The position numbers and the translations under genes were made by a program. A stretch of DNA of 64,000 nt. It comes from Sulfurovum sp. UBA12169 (GTDB lineage Bacteria > Campylobacterota > Campylobacteria > Campylobacterales > Sulfurovaceae). The stretch covers positions 321,707 to 385,706 of the forward strand of contig DLUH01000005.1 of the NCBI GenBank assembly GCA_002742845.1, written 5' to 3'. Below the pieces are notes generated by a model. The model was not told the origin of the DNA and made no database searches. It saw only the letters and a program-made list of their open reading frames with translations. Below are positions 42,460-52,896 of the stretch, one piece after another (within the stretch, counting starts at the first letter, position 1; every line of letters begins with the position of its first letter).

Positions 42460-42815
42460 TTTTATCTCTTACTGTTTCTATTCATATGTTAAATCCAATA
42501 CACTATCCTCTATTCGGACCTGCCGCAATTTCCGCAACTTTCAACATCTAAAATTTGTAAAGCCTGATTGTTTTACATTTACCGTTGCCCCAGATTAGAC
42601 ATGCATTATTTCCAAAAAATGTTAATTATCTGTTAAGCGAAAGGGGGATTTAAAATATAAAAAATTATAGAATTTAATTATAAAAATGATGCTATAATCA
42701 TTTGAAATAAAAGTAGGGCTAATTTACTAGACGTGTTTTTGATCTCAAGATCGCCTGAATAAAGAGCGTGCGGGAGAGTGTTTTTCATAAAGTGGAGTTG
42801 GCAAAAAAGGGCATA
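42460..42815. promoter_or_regulatory. divergent promoter region, DCCP operon and c-di-GMP gene
   Basis: A 356-base region without a convincing gene. A TATAAT lies on the plus strand at 42693-42698, and minus-strand TATAAT boxes at 42664-42669 and 42677-42682 face the DCCP operon. The minus-strand leader towards 42459 is thus about 200 nt, unusually long. It contains a short frame ending in SCGNCGRSE but with no start codon. A GATCTC-AAGATC-like dyad lies near 42741-42752. Confidence 0.45.
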
Positions 42816-45611
42816 ATGCATTCATCAAAGTTGTTTGATCCGGCTGTCCGCTTAATAGGCAATATAAAATATACGCGAAAGATCGCGCTGGCAAGTTTTA
42901 TCTTTTTTCTTCCTGTTCTTCTGCTTCTCTTTCTTGGCTATAACTATCTGGGAAACCAGTATCTGGCGATTCAAAAATTCCAATCCCGGCTTCACTACAA
43001 CCAAAAGGTTCAGGGATTTTTTGAATATATTTTGCTCGAACGGGGAATGATGGCAGCCCTTGGGCACGGCGACAATACCTACAAGCGGCACATCCAAGCC
43101 AATTTTTCCAAGATAGAATCGGCCATGGCCGCCGTAGATGCGCTTTCTGCCCCAACGCCGCACATCAAACAAGAATGGGAGAAGATAAAAACCGAATGGG
43201 CGCTACTTCGGCAAGAGCTATGGAACCTTTCGCCGCAACAAAATTTCGACCGCCACACCGATTTAGCCGATCAGGTTCTGCATTTGACACAAGATACCGA
43301 TGTCGATCCGGAACTTATCAACAATACTGATTTGAGTATAACACATCTTGCCGAGATTCTCAACGAACATCTCCCTGCACTGGCGCAGGAGGCAGGAAAA
43401 GCCCGTGCGATAGGCACGGCTGTGATCATGAAGCAGTCGATGTCTCTTGAAGAAAAAAGAGCGGCTACCCTACTCTACGGCACAGCCCAGTCTCATAAAG
43501 CCGGAATCGAACACGCTTTTGAAATTACCTGCAAATCTCAGCACGATATCTGCCGCGCCATTTCCCCTTTTATTGAAAAGATAAAACACAAGACTGACCG
43601 CTTTGGCGACAGGTTTGTTTTCGAAATTATCAATACCGATCATTGGTCTCTTGATGCTAAAAACTATTTTGATGAAGCAACGCAAATTATCAGTCACTAT
43701 TTTGATACATATGATGCCGTTTTTGATGCACTTCAAAAACATTTAAGCAGCCAACTTTCCCTTTTGGCCAAACAGATCATTGCCATAAGCATTATTGCTG
43801 CTGTCATGCTGATTTGTTTGATCTATTTTATGATGGGGTTTTATTTTTCTTTTATAAAATCGCTTAAAAGCTTGACAAAGGCATCCCAAATGATCGCTTT
43901 GGGCAATTTTGGCATCTCCGTCCCGATCCAAACGCGGGATGAAATGGCCGATGTCTCGTACGCTTTTAATGAGATGGGCCAAAAAATAAAGCAAACTTTT
44001 GCCTTTTTGGAAAGCTACAAAAAAGCGATAGATGAGAGCAACATCGTCTCCATTACAGATATTGACGGCAATATCACCTATGCCAACGACCAATTTTGCA
44101 AAATAACAGGATACACTCGCGAGGAGCTCATCGGCCAAAACCACCGCATCCTCAAAGATCCCGCTACCCCGGACAAAATCTACGAAGAGTTATGGAAAAC
44201 GATTCTTGATAAACGGGTCTGGTCGGGCATCTTGAAAAATATCGACAAAAACAAAAAACCTTTCTATGTCGATGCAACCATTACTCCCATCATAAATGCT
44301 GAAGGAGAGATCGTCGAATTTGCAGCGACACGGCACAATATCACCCAACTGATTGAGCAAAAAGAAAAACTTGCCCATCAATTATATACAGACTTTTTGA
44401 CAGAACTCCCCAACCGTTTAAAGCTATTAGAAGACCTTAAATATACCCATAGATCATCTATCTTGGCGCTGATTAACATTGATCGCTTTAGCGAAATCAA
44501 TGAATTTTATGGCACTGATACAGGAGATGAAGTTCTTATACAGATGCGTGATCGTATCACTTCTTTTCTCGAGGGAGCTTCTTTTAAACTTTACCATATT
44601 TATGCGGACGAATTTGCTCTTCTAATTGAAAAGCACGATTTGCAAAACTATGACAAAAATCTTCTTGAAATGCTTCATAAACATATCGAATTGCATCCTT
44701 TTCTCATCCAAGGCAATGCCATCATTGTTGGTATAACACTAGGAGCGATCGACCATACCGATACCAAACACTATCTCCTAACCGATACTGATATGGTACT
44801 GCGCCATGCCAAAAAATCCCAAAAAAATATTTTGATCCTTTCAGAGGTCGATACCATCAAAGAAGAGATTGCACACAATATTGAGTACATTGGAAAAATC
44901 AAAGAAGCGATGACGGCCAATCGGATTATTCCTTATTTTCAGCCCATCGTCAACACTGCTTCGGGCACAATAACCAAACATGAATGCCTCATGCGCCTTA
45001 TAACCTCCGAAGGAGTTGTTGTTTCTCCCTCTTCCTTCTTAGTCGTAGCAAAAAAGGCCCATCTTTATACCAATTTAACAAGGATTATCATCGAGAAAGT
45101 ATTCGCCGTTTTTGAGAACAGAGAAGATGAATTTTCAATCAACCTTTCAGTCGATGATATTATGGATTCTGCTACCGTTGAATTTATTATGGACAAAATA
45201 GAAAATCCAAAATTTAACCGTCGCGTTATCTTTGAAATTACCGAATCCGAAGAGTTTGAAAATTTTGAAGAGGTTCGCCGCTTTATCAGCGAAGCCAAAC
45301 GCAGAGGTGCCAAGATCGCCATCGATGATTTTGGCAGCGGCTACTCCAACTTTGCCTACTTGATACATTTGCAAGTTGACTTCATTAAAATTGATGCTTC
45401 GCTGATCAAAAACATCGACAAAGACTCAAGCAGCCGCATTATCGTCGAAACGATCGTTACCTTTGCCAAACTGTTGGGGATCAAAACCATTGCCGAATTC
45501 GTTCACTCTCGCGAAGTTTTTGAGGTTGTTCAAAAGATTGGTGTTGATTTTTCACAGGGGTTTTATTTTTATGAACCACAATCCAAACCATCGCAAACAG
45601 ATCCTCTTTAA
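42816..45611 (+). CDS. NIT-HAMP-PAS-GGDEF-EAL c-di-GMP signalling protein
   Basis: About 931 residues. Two membrane helices flank a periplasmic helical region resembling a nitrate/nitrite-sensing NIT domain (LLERGMMAALGHGD), then a HAMP linker, PAS domain (SITDIDGNITYAND) and tandem GGDEF-EAL. GGDEF is degenerate (YADEF), so synthase activity is unlikely. EAL has ECL for EAL, with NLS, FEITESE, IDDFGSGYSN, KID and Q-G intact, suggesting active c-di-GMP hydrolysis. Start ATG 42816 (AAGGG upstream) is chosen over GTG 42768. Confidence 0.85.
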   Translation: MHSSKLFDPAVRLIGNIKYTRKIALASFIFFLPVLLLLFLGYNYLGNQYLAIQKFQSRLHYNQKVQGFFEYILLERGMMAALGHGDNTYKRHIQANFSKIESAMAAVDALSAPTPHIKQEWEKIKTEWALLRQELWNLSPQQNFDRHTDLADQVLHLTQDTDVDPELINNTDLSITHLAEILNEHLPALAQEAGKARAIGTAVIMKQSMSLEEKRAATLLYGTAQSHKAGIEHAFEITCKSQHDICRAISPFIEKIKHKTDRFGDRFVFEIINTDHWSLDAKNYFDEATQIISHYFDTYDAVFDALQKHLSSQLSLLAKQIIAISIIAAVMLICLIYFMMGFYFSFIKSLKSLTKASQMIALGNFGISVPIQTRDEMADVSYAFNEMGQKIKQTFAFLESYKKAIDESNIVSITDIDGNITYANDQFCKITGYTREELIGQNHRILKDPATPDKIYEELWKTILDKRVWSGILKNIDKNKKPFYVDATITPIINAEGEIVEFAATRHNITQLIEQKEKLAHQLYTDFLTELPNRLKLLEDLKYTHRSSILALINIDRFSEINEFYGTDTGDEVLIQMRDRITSFLEGASFKLYHIYADEFALLIEKHDLQNYDKNLLEMLHKHIELHPFLIQGNAIIVGITLGAIDHTDTKHYLLTDTDMVLRHAKKSQKNILILSEVDTIKEEIAHNIEYIGKIKEAMTANRIIPYFQPIVNTASGTITKHECLMRLITSEGVVVSPSSFLVVAKKAHLYTNLTRIIIEKVFAVFENREDEFSINLSVDDIMDSATVEFIMDKIENPKFNRRVIFEITESEEFENFEEVRRFISEAKRRGAKIAIDDFGSGYSNFAYLIHLQVDFIKIDASLIKNIDKDSSSRIIVETIVTFAKLLGIKTIAEFVHSREVFEVVQKIGVDFSQGFYFYEPQSKPSQTDPL

Positions 45612-45689: not shown

Positions 45690-47405
45690 ATGCTCAAAGA
45701 GAGCCTGCCATACTATTCCTACCGTGATTATTTGACGCAAAGATACGGCGAACCTCTTTTTCGTGTCCCCATCGATCTGGAGCTTGGCTGCCCCAACAGA
45801 CGGCCCGATGGATCGGGGGGATGTACATTTTGCCCCGAAAACGGTGCCAGAGCCGTTCAAACGCTCGATGTCAGCGGCACTGAAGCGCAGTTAGCGGCGG
45901 GGATTTCCTTTGCAAAAAGGCGCTACAAGGCACGCCGCTTTATGCTCTATATCCAAGCCTATACCGGCACCTTCGCCTCTGTTATCGAACAGAAAAAAAA
46001 ATATTCCGAACTCCTGGAAGCTTATCCTTTTGATGCCATCAGTATCGGCACCAGGCCTGATTGCCTCTCAAAAGCAACACTCGAGTACCTTGAGGAACTC
46101 AACAAAACACTCGATGTTTTTGTCGAGCTTGGCGTACAAACGATCCACAACAAAACTCTTGAGCGCATTAACCGCCAGCACGACTGGCAAGCAAGTCTTG
46201 ATGCCATTGCTGCGCTCAAAGCCCACAATATCAAAGTCTGTGCGCATATCATTGTAGGACTGCCCGGCGAAGATCGCGAACATTACATCCAAACAGTCAA
46301 AACACTTGCTTCGCTCAACCTTGACGGCATCAAAATCCACAATTTGCATATCATTAAAAATACCCAGCTTGCCAAAGAATATCTTGCCCAACCGTTTCCT
46401 GTGATGGATGAGCATGAATACGCCCAAATCCTTATCGAGCTTATCCGCCGCTTACCCCCCGACTTGCCATTGATGCGTTTTGCAACCGATACTCCCGAAA
46501 AAGAGATTGTTGCGCCAAAATGGCATATGAGTAAAGGGCAGTTTTCGGAATATGTCACAGAACAGATGAGATTGCGCGGCTACCGCCAGGGAGACCTTTT
46601 TGAAGCAGGAAATGAAGAGCCCCAATCGCTTATGCCAACTGTTTTTGAATGCAAAGACGGAAGCTATACTTTTTGGAACGAAATGTTCCGTGATTATTAT
46701 CACCCAAGATCGGGAGCCAGAAAGCAGGCCGCCGAACTTTTTTTGCAAGAATCTTCATTAAGAGAAAGGCTAAAAAACGGACCTGTGCGACTGCTTGATA
46801 TCGGATTTGGAATGGGGTACAACAGCTTGCTTGCATGCGAAATGGCTCATAGCTTGGCACTTCACCCCCTCGAAATTCACGCCGTCGATCAAGATCGCAG
46901 GGTTATTCTTCAAAGTGCGGATATCATAAAAAATGTTCTTGATGAAAAGCTGGCATGGGCGCTGATCCTAAAAGAACTCTACAAAAACGGTATATACACT
47001 TCAGAATACTTTAATATAAGTCTCCATAACAGCGATGTCCGATATGCTCTTGAACAGCAAAAGGGGGAGTTTGATGTGATCTTTTTGGATCCGTTTATCG
47101 AACGGTCCAACTGTAGAATGGTAACACTTGAACTTTTTAAACATTTAAAGAAAATTCTTAAAAGCGACGGGGTGCTTGTCTACTCAGGAACCCATACGGC
47201 GTCTCTTTCGGCTATGGCTGATGCAGGTTTTTGTCTCACCGCTGCCGGCAAACCAAAAAGTGATATACACGGCATTGTTGCCAAACACAAGGGGCCTTCT
47301 TTGGAATGCAAAAACGTCCTGCCTTACCGCGACCCCTATGGTGTCTGGACGGACCGCAAGATCCGCCAGTACCGGGAAGAAGAAATCAAAAAACAACAGC
47401 ACTAA
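45690..47405 (+). CDS. radical SAM (TIGR01212/MnmL-like) fused to MnmC-type methyltransferase
   Basis: A 571-residue fusion. Residues 1-305 are a TIGR01212/YhcC-YtqA-type radical SAM domain: C34, C45 and C48 in GCPNRRPDGSGGCTFC hold the 4Fe-4S cluster, followed by GTRPDCL and VGLPGE. Residues about 310-571 are an MnmC2-like methyltransferase: FWNEMFRDYYHPRSG, SAM motif LLDIGFGMGYNS (368-379), and the MnmC-like acidic loop FLDPFIERSN with AMADAGF. Together these could convert cmnm5(s2)U to nm5(s2)U and on to mnm5(s2)U at tRNA position 34. That role is an inference from the two families. Confidence 0.85.
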   Translation: MLKESLPYYSYRDYLTQRYGEPLFRVPIDLELGCPNRRPDGSGGCTFCPENGARAVQTLDVSGTEAQLAAGISFAKRRYKARRFMLYIQAYTGTFASVIEQKKKYSELLEAYPFDAISIGTRPDCLSKATLEYLEELNKTLDVFVELGVQTIHNKTLERINRQHDWQASLDAIAALKAHNIKVCAHIIVGLPGEDREHYIQTVKTLASLNLDGIKIHNLHIIKNTQLAKEYLAQPFPVMDEHEYAQILIELIRRLPPDLPLMRFATDTPEKEIVAPKWHMSKGQFSEYVTEQMRLRGYRQGDLFEAGNEEPQSLMPTVFECKDGSYTFWNEMFRDYYHPRSGARKQAAELFLQESSLRERLKNGPVRLLDIGFGMGYNSLLACEMAHSLALHPLEIHAVDQDRRVILQSADIIKNVLDEKLAWALILKELYKNGIYTSEYFNISLHNSDVRYALEQQKGEFDVIFLDPFIERSNCRMVTLELFKHLKKILKSDGVLVYSGTHTASLSAMADAGFCLTAAGKPKSDIHGIVAKHKGPSLECKNVLPYRDPYGVWTDRKIRQYREEEIKKQQH

Positions 47406-47468: not shown

Positions 47469-48554
47469 ATGATAAACAAAAAACTAATTGAAGAAAAACT
47501 CTCCAAAGTAATTTATCCCGGTTTTGCTAAAAGCATTATAGATTTTGGTTTTGTTAAAAATATCACCGTTACAAATAACAAAATTGATATACACTTGGAT
47601 ATCCCCTCTTCGGCACCGGAAATTGAAACGCAATTGCGAGAAGAAATATATAAAAGAATCTCTTTATTGGGAGATTTGGAGATAGATATTCTTATCACAA
47701 AACCAAAAATACCCAAAGAAACAAGTTCACATGGTAAAAATGTACTTCCCGCTATTCAAAATTTTATTATGGTCAGCAGCGGAAAGGGAGGTGTGGGAAA
47801 ATCTACAACCTCGGTCAATCTTGCTATTGCACTCGCACAACAAGGCAAAAGAGTCGGCCTGCTCGATCTGGATATCTACGGGCCCAATATCCCGAGAATG
47901 ATGGGGATAGAAGGAAAAGAACCTGTTTTTCTGGGCAATAAAATAAAGCCTATTGTGGCACACAATGTTCAAGTGATGTCTATTGGTTCGCTTGTCGAGA
48001 GGGGTGCTTCTCTCATCTGGAAAGGTGCCATGGTTACACAAGCGATTGAGCAAATGCTAAAAGATATTTTATGGAACAAGCTTGATATATTACTCTTTGA
48101 TATGCCTCCGGGCACAGGTGATGCACAATTGGCCCTGGCGCAAAATCTGCCTGTTACGGCCGGGGTGTGCGTTACAACGCCTCAAAAAGTGGCACTTGAT
48201 GACACTATCAGGAGTATGGATATGTTCGCCCAACTTCATATTCCTATCGCCGGAATTGTTGAAAATATGAGCGGTTTTATCTGTCCTGATAGCGGCAAAG
48301 AGTATGATATTTTTGGCAAAGGCACTACAAAACCGCTTGCTGAGAGTTATCATACGGAAATTTTGGGAGAAATTCCTCTTGAACCTGCCATTAGAGAAGG
48401 GGGCGACAGCGGTCTGCCGATCACTGTTTTAGCACCCCTTTGTGAAACATCCAAACGGTATCAAACAATCGCTGCTAAAATTTGGGAAATAGTGCTCAAA
48501 ATAAACGAAGAAGGCGGCGTGAATAACGAAAAGATACAGCCTACTGTCTTTTAG
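47469..48554 (+). CDS. mrp: Mrp/NBP35-family Fe-S carrier ATPase
   Basis: A 361-residue protein. An N-terminal FeS-assembly P/DUF59 domain (about 1-80) is followed by a deviant Walker A (SGKGGVGKSTTSVNLA, about residue 97), switch motifs (LLDLDIYGPNIPRM) and the DMPPGTGDAQL block. The paired Cys needed for cluster transfer in NBP35/ApbC are not seen as a typical CPxC near the C-terminus; only GFICPDSGK is present. It would load 4Fe-4S clusters onto apo-proteins. It follows the radical SAM fusion by 63 bases. Confidence 0.9.
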   Translation: MINKKLIEEKLSKVIYPGFAKSIIDFGFVKNITVTNNKIDIHLDIPSSAPEIETQLREEIYKRISLLGDLEIDILITKPKIPKETSSHGKNVLPAIQNFIMVSSGKGGVGKSTTSVNLAIALAQQGKRVGLLDLDIYGPNIPRMMGIEGKEPVFLGNKIKPIVAHNVQVMSIGSLVERGASLIWKGAMVTQAIEQMLKDILWNKLDILLFDMPPGTGDAQLALAQNLPVTAGVCVTTPQKVALDDTIRSMDMFAQLHIPIAGIVENMSGFICPDSGKEYDIFGKGTTKPLAESYHTEILGEIPLEPAIREGGDSGLPITVLAPLCETSKRYQTIAAKIWEIVLKINEEGGVNNEKIQPTVF

Positions 48555-48612: not shown

Positions 48613-49830
48613 TTAATGGTGTTCATCTGCATCAAGATTGAAGAGTTTTGTACCTACATAATAAAGCAAAATACATAAACCAAGCCCTCCAAGCGAAATC
48701 ATAATTTCTGTAACACTTGGAAAATAATGAACCCATGACGGAGCAAGTTGATATTCAGTTATTTTCATCATCTGAAGCGGTTTAAGCTGCGTATCATGCA
48801 CCAGATTGTATCGCATAAAAAATACCCCTACCATGCCGCTAAGTGATGCCCAAAACATACCTGTAAGATTTTTTCCCATATCTTTTAAAATGATAAAAAG
48901 AGGGATCAGCATAGCCAAAACCACCTCTGCCCAGAATGTCCAAGAACCCAAAATATGTATAGCAACATCTGCGCGGTTTGGCATATCTCCGTAAATATCG
49001 GTTAAAAATTTCCAAGTAACAAAGAAAATCAAAATGGAAATTAAAAGCGCTTGAATTTTTGCCAAATTGGTGAGCATCACTTTTGCATTTTCCGGAAACT
49101 GCAACTTGTATCTAAATCCCATCATAATAAAGGCAATAAAAATTCCTGTAATAAATGCGGTTAAGATAAAATAAGTCGGATAAAATACCCCGTTTGAAAT
49201 AGTTCTAGCATTTAAAAATCCAAATACCCCGCCAAGATTTGAGTGTGCCGCAAGACCCACCAAAAGTCCGGTTAAACCGAAAAATTTTGCCATTTTCATA
49301 TTGTGCTTAAGTAAAAAGACAAACTCAATAATCATAAAGGTCAAATAAAGCCCATAAAGAGTTCCCATCCACCAAATAGCACTGGTAAGTCCCGGAGAAA
49401 GAACATTGTAAATGAGCATGGTAACAGGATGGCCGATCTCAAAAGCAATAACTGCAAATCCTGCCATAATGGTAACAATAGACCCAAAAATAGCCCTTTT
49501 TGAAATCATCTCATAATCTTTAAATCCAAAAACATCCCCCAAAGACCCTACAATACAAAGTCCGGTTGAGCTCACAACAAAGAAGATGTATACTGCAATC
49601 AGTAGTCCCCACGGATGTTCTCTTGTTACGTTATAGGCATGATGTCCATGCATAAGATATGTTGCCACACCCAAAACAAAAAATGCCAAAAAAGCCAGTG
49701 TGATAACTGCCACAAGCATATTTCGCGGTGTCTTTTCAAAATTCAATAAATCTTTTATTCCTATCTTATTGAAAGGAATCGTAGCGATAAACTCTTTTAT
49801 ACTCTGTTTTTGTTGAATAGTTTCTGCCAT
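48613..49830 (-). CDS. psrC: polysulfide reductase membrane subunit PsrC (NrfD family)
   Basis: A 405-residue integral membrane protein with about nine to ten helices, of the NrfD/PsrC type, which exchanges electrons with the quinone pool and anchors the PsrAB enzyme. It starts with AGGGG upstream 10 bases after psrB. The C-terminal residues are acidic (NLDADEHH). It is in the canonical A-B-C order. Confidence 0.9.
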   Translation of the reverse strand: MAETIQQKQSIKEFIATIPFNKIGIKDLLNFEKTPRNMLVAVITLAFLAFFVLGVATYLMHGHHAYNVTREHPWGLLIAVYIFFVVSSTGLCIVGSLGDVFGFKDYEMISKRAIFGSIVTIMAGFAVIAFEIGHPVTMLIYNVLSPGLTSAIWWMGTLYGLYLTFMIIEFVFLLKHNMKMAKFFGLTGLLVGLAAHSNLGGVFGFLNARTISNGVFYPTYFILTAFITGIFIAFIMMGFRYKLQFPENAKVMLTNLAKIQALLISILIFFVTWKFLTDIYGDMPNRADVAIHILGSWTFWAEVVLAMLIPLFIILKDMGKNLTGMFWASLSGMVGVFFMRYNLVHDTQLKPLQMMKITEYQLAPSWVHYFPSVTEIMISLGGLGLCILLYYVGTKLFNLDADEHH

Positions 49831-49840
49831 AAATAACCCC

Positions 49841-50404
49841 TTATGTTAGATAGAATAATTTTGGTTTGGTACCAAGATGTGATTTAAGACTAAAATGTTC
49901 TCTAGTTCTAAGCAGTTCACTGATTTCACTATCGGGATCATCAAGATCGCCAAATGTTCGTACTTTCGTAGGACAGGTATTTTGGCATGCTGTAGTGGTT
50001 TCACCTCTTGCCAATCTTGTATCGCTACAGAAGTTACATTTATCGACTGTCATGGTTCTATCATCCACATATCGCGCATCATAAGGACATGCGTTCATGC
50101 AGTAACTGCACAAGATACACTTCTCTGCATTAACCCGCACTACCCCATTTTCATCATAATACGTGGCATTCGTAGGGCATACCTCTTGGCAGGGAGCATC
50201 ATCACAGTGCTGACACTGACTGGGCTCAAAACTACTTGAAACGATACTAAGAAACGGGTATTCGCCCTCTATCTCTTTCACTCCTACCCAAATTCTATGT
50301 TTATCTGCGCCCATAAGAATCCCATTTTCTTCTTTGCAGGCAACTTCACATGCTTTACAATTAATACAATTTTTATAATCTAAAGCCATTCCATATCTTG
50401 CCAT
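49841..50404 (-). CDS. psrB: polysulfide reductase 4Fe-4S subunit PsrB
   Basis: A 187-residue ferredoxin-type subunit with four Cys groups: CINCKACEVACKEENG, CQHCDDAPCQEVCP, CILCSYCMNACP, and CNFCSDT..CQNTCPT. These bind four 4Fe-4S clusters and carry electrons from PsrC to PsrA. It starts two bases after psrA's stop with AAAGG upstream. Confidence 0.95.
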   Translation of the reverse strand: MARYGMALDYKNCINCKACEVACKEENGILMGADKHRIWVGVKEIEGEYPFLSIVSSSFEPSQCQHCDDAPCQEVCPTNATYYDENGVVRVNAEKCILCSYCMNACPYDARYVDDRTMTVDKCNFCSDTRLARGETTTACQNTCPTKVRTFGDLDDPDSEISELLRTREHFSLKSHLGTKPKLFYLT

Positions 50405-50406
50405 GA

Positions 50407-52896
50407 TTACACCTTTCTTATTTCTACATTTGTTTCATGCATCGATGCTGCACCATAAACAGATTCAATAATGTCTTCAATGACAGTATTGTCGTTTCCG
50501 CCATTTTTATAAGCCCATGTCAAAGCCTCACTCTCTGCACCAAAACCATGAATAAAGAAGACTTGGTTGGGTGCAATTTTCTCTGTCGGGTATGCTTTAA
50601 TGGTTACAGAACCTGTTTTGCTTGAAATTTCAACTCTATCGCCAAAAGCGATACCTCTCTCTTTTGCTATACGCTTATTGATCCAAATATAATTCTCAGG
50701 CATTAAATCTCTCAGTACAATATTGTTGGCTGTACCGCTCTGTGTAAATTGAGCATGACGGCCCGTTAAAAGTTTAAACTTTCCTTCCGGTACACTAAAG
50801 AGATACTCATCTTTCCAGATCGGCATAGGATCAACGCCTTTTTTTGCCAAATTGGCCAAATTACACTCTACTTTTTGTGATGGCGTCTTAGGTTTCCCGC
50901 CATTGACACTGTAGGCTTTTTCTTTTTCCGGATAATACTGAAATTCATTGACAGAAAGTGCTTTATAAAACTTATCCATATTTGGATAGAAAACACCATC
51001 TTTATTGAGTACCTCAACTGCTTCTTTGCCATAAACACTCTCGACCATATGAGCATTGATCTCCTCTTGAGAATGCTTGAAAGGTTTAGTTAAATCAAAC
51101 TCTGCATAGACTTCTGCTTCCCTTTCTTCTTTTGTCATGGTTGCAGCAGTTTTGGTAACATTGCCATCTTCTCCGACAATCTCTTCCTCGCCGAGATTGG
51201 CAAGTTCATCCTGCAAATCTTCATCATGCTTTTTAGAAATTTCAAAGAGCGGTTTGGAGATTTTCTCGGTAAGTCCTCTCATGATATCTATAACGGGCTT
51301 TGTTTCAAACATAGGATCAACTACTTTATTGCGTTGAGCAATAGCAGGCTCAACCCCGCCAAACGTATTTACCGGATCAGTACGCTCCAGATAAGTACAC
51401 TCCGGCAATACTACATCTGCATACATCACGGTATCACTTGGCATCGTATCAATTGCCACTACAAGCTCCATTTTTTTAAGCATCTGAGCTGTTTTTTTTG
51501 TATTTGGCATATTCATCATCGGATTGTGTTTATAGCAGAACATGCCTCTCACTTTATATGGCATTCTGTCTTCCAAAAATCTATTTCTCCAGCCGATCCA
51601 CGACCCCCCATCGGTTACAACAGCACAATCGGCATAACCGCTGTGTCCCTTCTGGGACTCACTGCTATCCACTGCACGCGCTTCAGCTCTTCCATAAATA
51701 GGTTCCAATCCCTCATGTGTTCCCAACTCAAGTCGTTTGCCAAACACAAGTCCGCCTTTTGTATCAATTCCTCCGCCTAGTCCTTGGAAGATTGCCATAG
51801 CTCGTCTAAGTTGGAAATCGTTGTTGGAAAAAGTGCTTCTTCTGCCGGGATAGTAGACTGCCTTAGGAGCATGTGCCATAAACTCTCTGGCTATCTGATA
51901 GATATCTTCGGCTTTAATATTTGTAATCTTTTCAGCCCATTCTGGGGTATATTGATTATCTATAACACTTTTTTTATACTCATTAAACCCATTAAAATTT
52001 TCAGCCACATAAGTTTTATCATAAAGCTCTTCGCTCAGAACAACATATGTTAGAGCCAAAACAAAAGCCAAATCGGTTCCCGGATTGATTGCCAGCCATT
52101 TATCCGCTTTTGCTGCTGTATTGGTAAATCTAGGATCAATACAAATCAGTTTAGCGCCTCTGCCTTTTGTGCGTTTGAAAGCATCCATGGTATCAGGAGT
52201 CACTATTGCTTCAGCTCTGTTAGCTCCTGCCATAATAATATACTCTGCATTATCCAAATCTGCCTGCGGATATGCGCCCAGTGTAACACCGTATGCTGAA
52301 GCTACTGTTTGCAAACAGATTGAAGAGTGATTTAGCCAGTTGGCTGAACCGAATGCAGAAAAAAAGGTTTTAAACGTATGTTCTGCCATCCCTTCTCCCG
52401 CACAAAACAGAAATGAAGAACGGTTATCTTCCTCTTCATCCAATATCTTTACCACGCCTGGGAACTTATCGGTTCCATTTAAGATGGCTTCGTAAGCTTC
52501 ATCCCAAGAAACACGTTTGAATTTACCCTCCCCTTTTTCGCCAATACGAATCAGCGGATATTTTAAACGATCCGGATCATATAATGCCTGAATTCCAGCA
52601 TTTCCTCTGGGACACAGCATATTTTTTGATTTTGGAAACATGGGGTTTGGATCTAACTTAGTTACCACTCCATCTTCTACTCTAGCGATGGCTGCACATT
52701 TATTGACACACATTTCACAGAGTGTAGCAATATTTTTTACCTCTTTTGCTGCACCTGTTTTTGTGGTGATAGTCAATTTTTTATCATGTGCATCATTGCT
52801 TGCAAAAAGGTTTGTTGCACTCATTGTTGTTCCGCCGACAACACTCATTGCAACTGTCCCTTGAAGAAACTTCCGTCTCGACATTTCAATTTGCAT
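50407..52896 (-). CDS. psrA: polysulfide/thiosulfate reductase catalytic subunit PsrA
   Basis: An 829-residue molybdopterin oxidoreductase of the DMSO-reductase family. A twin-Arg signal (SRRKFLQG, residues 6-13) sends it to the periplasm. Cys60, 63, 67 and 95 bind the proximal 4Fe-4S cluster. Cys194 in NHSSICLQ is the likely Mo ligand, as in PsrA/PhsA enzymes. It would reduce polysulfide, thiosulfate or sulfur, and substrate specificity cannot be read from sequence. Start ATG 52896 has GGAG at 8 bases. It depends on MGD (mobA at 23.3 kb). Confidence 0.93.
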   Translation of the reverse strand: MQIEMSRRKFLQGTVAMSVVGGTTMSATNLFASNDAHDKKLTITTKTGAAKEVKNIATLCEMCVNKCAAIARVEDGVVTKLDPNPMFPKSKNMLCPRGNAGIQALYDPDRLKYPLIRIGEKGEGKFKRVSWDEAYEAILNGTDKFPGVVKILDEEEDNRSSFLFCAGEGMAEHTFKTFFSAFGSANWLNHSSICLQTVASAYGVTLGAYPQADLDNAEYIIMAGANRAEAIVTPDTMDAFKRTKGRGAKLICIDPRFTNTAAKADKWLAINPGTDLAFVLALTYVVLSEELYDKTYVAENFNGFNEYKKSVIDNQYTPEWAEKITNIKAEDIYQIAREFMAHAPKAVYYPGRRSTFSNNDFQLRRAMAIFQGLGGGIDTKGGLVFGKRLELGTHEGLEPIYGRAEARAVDSSESQKGHSGYADCAVVTDGGSWIGWRNRFLEDRMPYKVRGMFCYKHNPMMNMPNTKKTAQMLKKMELVVAIDTMPSDTVMYADVVLPECTYLERTDPVNTFGGVEPAIAQRNKVVDPMFETKPVIDIMRGLTEKISKPLFEISKKHDEDLQDELANLGEEEIVGEDGNVTKTAATMTKEEREAEVYAEFDLTKPFKHSQEEINAHMVESVYGKEAVEVLNKDGVFYPNMDKFYKALSVNEFQYYPEKEKAYSVNGGKPKTPSQKVECNLANLAKKGVDPMPIWKDEYLFSVPEGKFKLLTGRHAQFTQSGTANNIVLRDLMPENYIWINKRIAKERGIAFGDRVEISSKTGSVTIKAYPTEKIAPNQVFFIHGFGAESEALTWAYKNGGNDNTVIEDIIESVYGAASMHETNVEIRKV

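Follow-up and report, generated by a model that had tools for sequence, protein, structure and literature searches.

A radical SAM–MnmC2-like fusion protein from Sulfurovum as a candidate enzyme for the final two steps in mnm5(s2)U34 synthesis

Introduction

In the closest described systems, the final two steps of mnm5(s2)U34 synthesis in tRNA are divided differently between proteins. The bifunctional MnmC of E. coli, found also in a Campylobacter-type family (f3), is a single chain for both steps, built from an FAD oxidoreductase domain (MnmC1) and an MnmC2-type methyltransferase. In Bacillota, two proteins that do not use FAD are involved, namely the TIGR01212 radical SAM protein MnmL (YtqA), for which PMC12548931 cites Jaroch et al. 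2024 (J Bacteriol 206:e00452-23), and the U34 methyltransferase MnmM (YtqB), which belongs to another methyltransferase family. We found the Bacillota YtqA gene and, next to it in one operon, a gene for a methyltransferase at the position of mnmM. Standalone MnmC2 (also called MnmD), as represented by Aquifex DUF752 (structure 3vyw), has no radical SAM partner domain. Cho et al. 2023 (PMC9976899) drew attention to the many bacteria and archaea that possess such an orphan MnmC methyltransferase and in which it is not known what takes the place of the MnmC oxidase.

Here we analyze a gene of Sulfurovum sp. UBA12169 whose product shares features with all of these systems. Like bifunctional MnmC, it is a single chain with an MnmC2-type methyltransferase, but it has a radical SAM domain instead of the FAD oxidoreductase domain, and the domain order is reversed. 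Like MnmL and MnmM, it pairs a TIGR01212 radical SAM domain with a putative U34 methyltransferase, whereas its radical SAM part belongs to a separate clade and its methyltransferase to the MnmC2 family. With a probability of roughly 0.6, we read the protein as an enzyme that modifies tRNA and whose two domains complete mnm5(s2)U34 synthesis by its final two steps, with the origin and transfer proposed below.

Results

Two domains in one open reading frame

The fusion gene occupies a single uninterrupted frame of 571 codons at positions 45690–47405 (+) of the window (the whole 64,000-nt stretch of DNA analyzed here) and encodes a radical SAM domain followed by an MnmC2-like methyltransferase (571 aa), as the original prediction had it. 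A hidden Markov model search placed the N-terminal half (residues 8–305; 45711–46604, +) in the TIGR01212 family with 290.5 bits against a cut-off of 180. The predicted [4Fe-4S]/SAM site consists of Cys34, Cys45 and Cys48 within CPNRRPDGSGGCTFC (45789–45833, +); these cysteines are invariant in a 14-sequence alignment and conserved across all TIGR01212 groups compared. They lie where the prediction had placed them, as do the FLDPF-N and AMADAGF features of the second half. A Radical_SAM_C domain (PF16199; 85.8 bits) covers residues 212–294 (46323–46571, +). Overall, Radical_SAM, Radical_SAM_C and Methyltransf_30 each exceeded their Pfam gathering scores on the fusion, PF05430 scored 36.4 bits on the methyltransferase half against a gathering score of 22, and PF06962 (MnmM) was absent from the Pfam matches. 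Among profile and Pfam matches, we found neither an FAD-dependent MnmC1 domain within the 571 aa nor a GNAT acetyltransferase domain of the kind present in Elp3.

The C-terminal half (residues 313–571; 46626–47402, +) comprises an MnmC2-like methyltransferase domain with a C-terminal tail. Aquifex MnmC2 (3vyw) was its only solved relative by sequence (phmmer, 5.9e-10), and other methyltransferase families scored far lower than MnmC2, so the expected kinship with MnmC2 rather than with unrelated methyltransferases was borne out by profile, sequence and fold. The MnmC2 profile NF033855 gave 73.6 bits on the whole fusion (residues 330–514) and 75.7 bits on the C-terminal half alone, both under the cut-off of 136; among the Campylobacterota proteins surveyed, only the bifunctional MnmCs pass this cut-off, and all separate MnmC2s fall below it. 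In an alignment with E. coli MnmC, the SAM-binding motif I LLDIGFGMGYN (residues 368–378; 46791–46823, +) matched the GxGxxN motif, with G374, G376 and N378 corresponding to G68, G70 and N72. Similarly, the segment FLDPFIERSN (residues 465–474; 47082–47111, +) equates Asp467, Phe469 and Asn474 with Asp178, Phe180 and Asn185 of E. coli MnmC, where Asp178 is the proposed base activating the amine (PMC3648344). Asp467 and Phe469 are 100% conserved in the fused, separate and bifunctional MnmC2 groups. The tail (residues 545–571; 47322–47402, +) carries a PYRDP motif, in which Y546 and D548 are conserved in 90% and 97% of the fusions, respectively. The Trp that usually follows the Asn motif is missing in the window protein and in the Campylobacterota fusions of the 14-sequence alignment; 57% of all fusions compared have it, among them a Kiritimatiellae copy (L022).

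An AlphaFold model built from the 14 orthologues (mean pLDDT 88.1, pTM 0.86) agreed with these assignments. The methyltransferase half (model residues 313–570) superimposed on 3vyw with Z 28.2 and rmsd 2.5 over 250 residues, the C-terminal tail included, and shares with it the conserved SAM motif, Asp and Asn. The radical SAM half resembled Elp3 (Z up to 24.6). Elp3 is a wobble-uridine enzyme whose radical SAM fold acts on C5 of U34.

Orthologues of the fusion were present in 13 other genomes (L011–L023) at 43–85% identity. We considered an assembly artefact and ruled it out, because the fusion recurs in these 13 independent genomes and purifying selection acts on both halves, with dN/dS values of about 0.08–0.13 when the closest Sulfurovum-type copies are compared.

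The fusion is an addition in its own genome

The window genome is a 1.86-Mb Campylobacterota genome (99.97% complete) whose nearest fusion relatives are Sulfurovum-type. It also encodes a separate MnmC1 (L005, 369 aa) that matches the whole model with 161.8 bits, just under the cut-off of 174.2, the next-best unrelated family being glycine oxidase (ThiO; 58.5 bits). Furthermore, a separate MnmC2 (L009, 258 aa) and a second, separate TIGR01212 protein (L001) are present. The fusion is therefore an additional route in this genome and not the only one, and the earlier view of it as the sole FAD-free route here does not hold, a separate MnmC1 having been named beforehand as evidence against that view.

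Only one of eight surveyed genomes of the window's family carries the fusion, and together with the separate pathway this would be expected if the gene were a remnant left by horizontal transfer, decaying or selfish, that no longer has a role in the window genome. We regard such a remnant as very improbable: dN/dS is about 0.1 in both halves and the catalytic residues are invariant. Rather, purifying selection on both halves in the Sulfurovum-type relatives argues that the gene is used even beside the standard genes.

The gene neighbourhood is conserved among the closest Sulfurovum-type relatives only. An Mrp/NUBPL-type iron-sulfur carrier ATPase gene (47469–48554, +) starts 63 bases after the fusion; L011 and L013 share this arrangement, as does L012 with a single intervening gene, which possibly reflects a link to cluster supply, or chance. 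Upstream lies a gene for a PAS/GGDEF/EAL sensor protein (42768–45611, +), a relative of which (37–38% identity) also lies ahead of the fusion at two distant loci, L015 and L023. Further downstream, genes for an NrfD membrane protein, a 4Fe-4S protein and a molybdopterin oxidoreductase stand in a row on the other strand (48613–52896, −), resembling an operon for a reductase of polysulfide or thiosulfate.

Co-occurrence with MnmC1 and MnmC2 in Campylobacterota

A TIGR01212 protein was present in 99 of 200 Campylobacterota genomes, eight of which carry the fusion. We surveyed MnmC1 and MnmC2 in all 99 and in 12 genomes without TIGR01212 (111 in total), counting MnmC1 only if it scored about 76 bits or more and the match reached the C-terminal part of the model. 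TIGR01212, MnmC1 and MnmC2 occurred together in 45 genomes, TIGR01212 and MnmC2 without MnmC1 in 50, bifunctional MnmC without TIGR01212 in five and neither MnmC part in 11. All 50 genomes with MnmC2 but no MnmC1 have TIGR01212; conversely, MnmC2 lacking both was found in none of the 111, of which 12 were TIGR01212-less. As relatives share history and these counts are not independent, we attach no p-value to them.

In the family that we judged Sulfurospirillum-type on the basis of named hits (f10), seven of eight genomes carry the fusion and none of the eight has MnmC1 or any other MnmC2. The remaining genome (G174) also lacks MnmC1 and MnmC2, having kept MnmG, and has apparently lost the last two steps. 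In the family judged Helicobacteraceae-like (f2), we observed a separate TIGR01212 protein and a separate MnmC2 without MnmC1, the two genes being adjacent in nine genomes. These are the same two parts as in the fusion, although encoded by separate genes and with both halves from clades other than those of the fusion, and they count in favour of the proposed mechanism. Phage records among the matches listed contained separate TIGR01212 proteins only and no fusion.

Belonging to TIGR01212 is not by itself proof of the MnmL reaction, because the family is kept in the 45 genomes with MnmC1. This bears on an explanation in which only the methyltransferase half takes part in the U34 pathway, acting on nm5U made directly by MnmEG with ammonium, and the radical SAM half has some other, YhcC-like role. 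The occurrence of TIGR01212 beside a complete MnmC, as with E. coli YhcC and in those 45 genomes, would fit it, and so would the ammonium-dependent formation of nm5 by E. coli MnmEG that is described in PMC3936742. Against it stand the survey, in which no genome with MnmC2 lacked both MnmC1 and TIGR01212 (12 TIGR01212-less genomes checked), and the covalent fusion together with the gene adjacency in Helicobacteraceae-like genomes, which point to one pathway. We therefore think it decidedly unlikely, more so than the substrate-based alternative that follows.

Two Arcobacteraceae genomes with the fusion (G208 and G209) also hold both MnmC1 and MnmC2. This coexistence, seen in the window genome (G000) as well, raises the question of whether the fusion acts on U34 but on a different substrate from the MnmC1/MnmC2 pair, such as tRNAs otherwise left at cmnm5, or another C5 side chain. 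A division of substrates would account for the window genome keeping all four genes and for the strong purifying selection on both halves despite apparent redundancy; it would also agree with the distinct deep clade formed by the radical SAM half (see below) and with the fact that, according to PMC3936742, some E. coli tRNAs end at cmnm5. The fusion is, however, the only candidate for the ordinary pathway that we found in the Sulfurospirillum-type family and in the Kiritimatiellae-containing phylum, and we consider a different substrate unlikely.

The Kiritimatiellae-containing phylum and the origin of the fused gene

Outside Campylobacterota, the fusion is carried by a Kiritimatiellae metagenome-assembled genome (G211), and some 54 of the 289 genomes from its phylum contain an open frame that spans the two halves. 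At E ≤ 1e-30, the fusion was the only match per genome among those listed; a first look scored at most four candidates in each genome. None of the ∼54 fusion genomes, whose completeness is not reported, had a full-length MnmC1; the best match (83 bits) covered the N-terminal FAD part only, and the matches were mostly oxidases of about 490–530 aa. MnmC1 was likewise not found in the non-fusion genomes checked in this phylum, so its absence is general and not a contrast between genomes with and without the fusion. A few fusions in this phylum (L165–L167 and L205) have a shorter cluster spacing (CPHGRC.FC) than usual and appear to retain the three cysteines.

The radical SAM domains of the fusions grouped in their tree as a deep, separate clade (support 100/100) apart from Bacillota YtqA, E. 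coli YhcC, Bacteroidota proteins and the separate Campylobacterota TIGR01212 proteins. The original description of this half as MnmL-like thus stands as far as family membership and the cysteines are concerned, but not for placement with Bacillota YtqA/MnmL. Positions 52, 126 and 267 match Bacillota MnmL and not YhcC, and a similar number match the opposite way, and we base no conclusion on these positions. Because this half lies outside the Bacillota MnmL clade, its exact reaction is one that we infer.

The 18 Campylobacterota fusions formed one group (100/99) within the diversity of the other phylum in the radical SAM tree. The methyltransferase tree also united the Campylobacterota fused copies (100/100) and set fused domains apart from bifunctional ones, and in it two groups of fused domains joined the separate MnmC2s of Campylobacterota at an unresolved node. 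Both trees are compatible with a single fusion event and a single transfer into Campylobacterota, and since the Campylobacterota copies nest inside the Kiritimatiellae-containing phylum, the fused gene was probably transferred once. Some members of the fusion clade (L187–L189 and L191–L194) are stand-alone radical SAM proteins whose genes have no methyltransferase gene next to them; the history must therefore also include loss of a domain, or an ancestor that was not fused.

Discussion

Our analysis shows the domain content, conserved catalytic residues, predicted folds, grouping of the fused forms in the sampled trees and gene co-occurrence; what each half does, in which order, and why the routes coexist in the window genome is what we infer. 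MnmEG would first produce cmnm5U34. Across the 17 genomes tested, MnmG was always present, so the pathway to the cmnm5 precursor is likely in place, and MnmM was found in none. The MnmL/YtqA-like N-terminal domain would then convert cmnm5U34 to nm5(s2)U34, using radical chemistry to strip the amine of its carboxymethyl group and requiring neither flavin nor oxygen, and the MnmC2-like C-terminal domain would methylate the freed amine with a second SAM, Asp467 being the likely base. The fused gene may have had a single origin in or near the Kiritimatiellae-containing phylum, followed by one move into Campylobacterota. There, it would have replaced MnmC1 and MnmC2 in the Sulfurospirillum-type family, and in the Sulfurovum-type window genome it would work beside them, perhaps for low-oxygen growth or for other tRNAs.

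That one polypeptide constitutes a complete flavin-free and oxygen-independent pathway from cmnm5(s2)U34 to mnm5(s2)U34, with a single origin in the Kiritimatiellae-containing phylum, transfer to Campylobacterota, displacement of MnmC1/MnmC2 in the Sulfurospirillum-type family and coexistence elsewhere, is a proposal to which we give even odds. Several observations speak against the mechanism: the coexisting MnmC1/MnmC2 genes in the window genome and two Arcobacteraceae, the separate radical SAM clade, the score below the NF033855 cut-off, the missing Trp and the stand-alone clade members. Where the fusion is present and MnmC1 and any other MnmC2 are absent, the fusion is most naturally read as an FAD-free route in a single chain; to that extent the predicted pathway fits, short of being the sole route in the window genome.

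The phrase 'third architecture', used for the fusion at the outset, is a fair description. Its novelty may already have been touched on, as the abstract of the 2024 MnmL paper by Jaroch et al. reportedly mentions fusion proteins and alternate arrangements, and we therefore do not claim the architecture as new. Our analysis adds the co-occurrence pattern, the distribution over two phyla, the inferred transfer and the presence of both routes in the window genome. The fusion and the adjacent Helicobacteraceae-like genes connect TIGR01212 radical SAM proteins not only with MnmM but also with the MnmC2 family. For at least two phyla, these proteins are thereby direct candidates for the enzyme that is missing, and the genomes in which the fusion is the only candidate offer a clean test.
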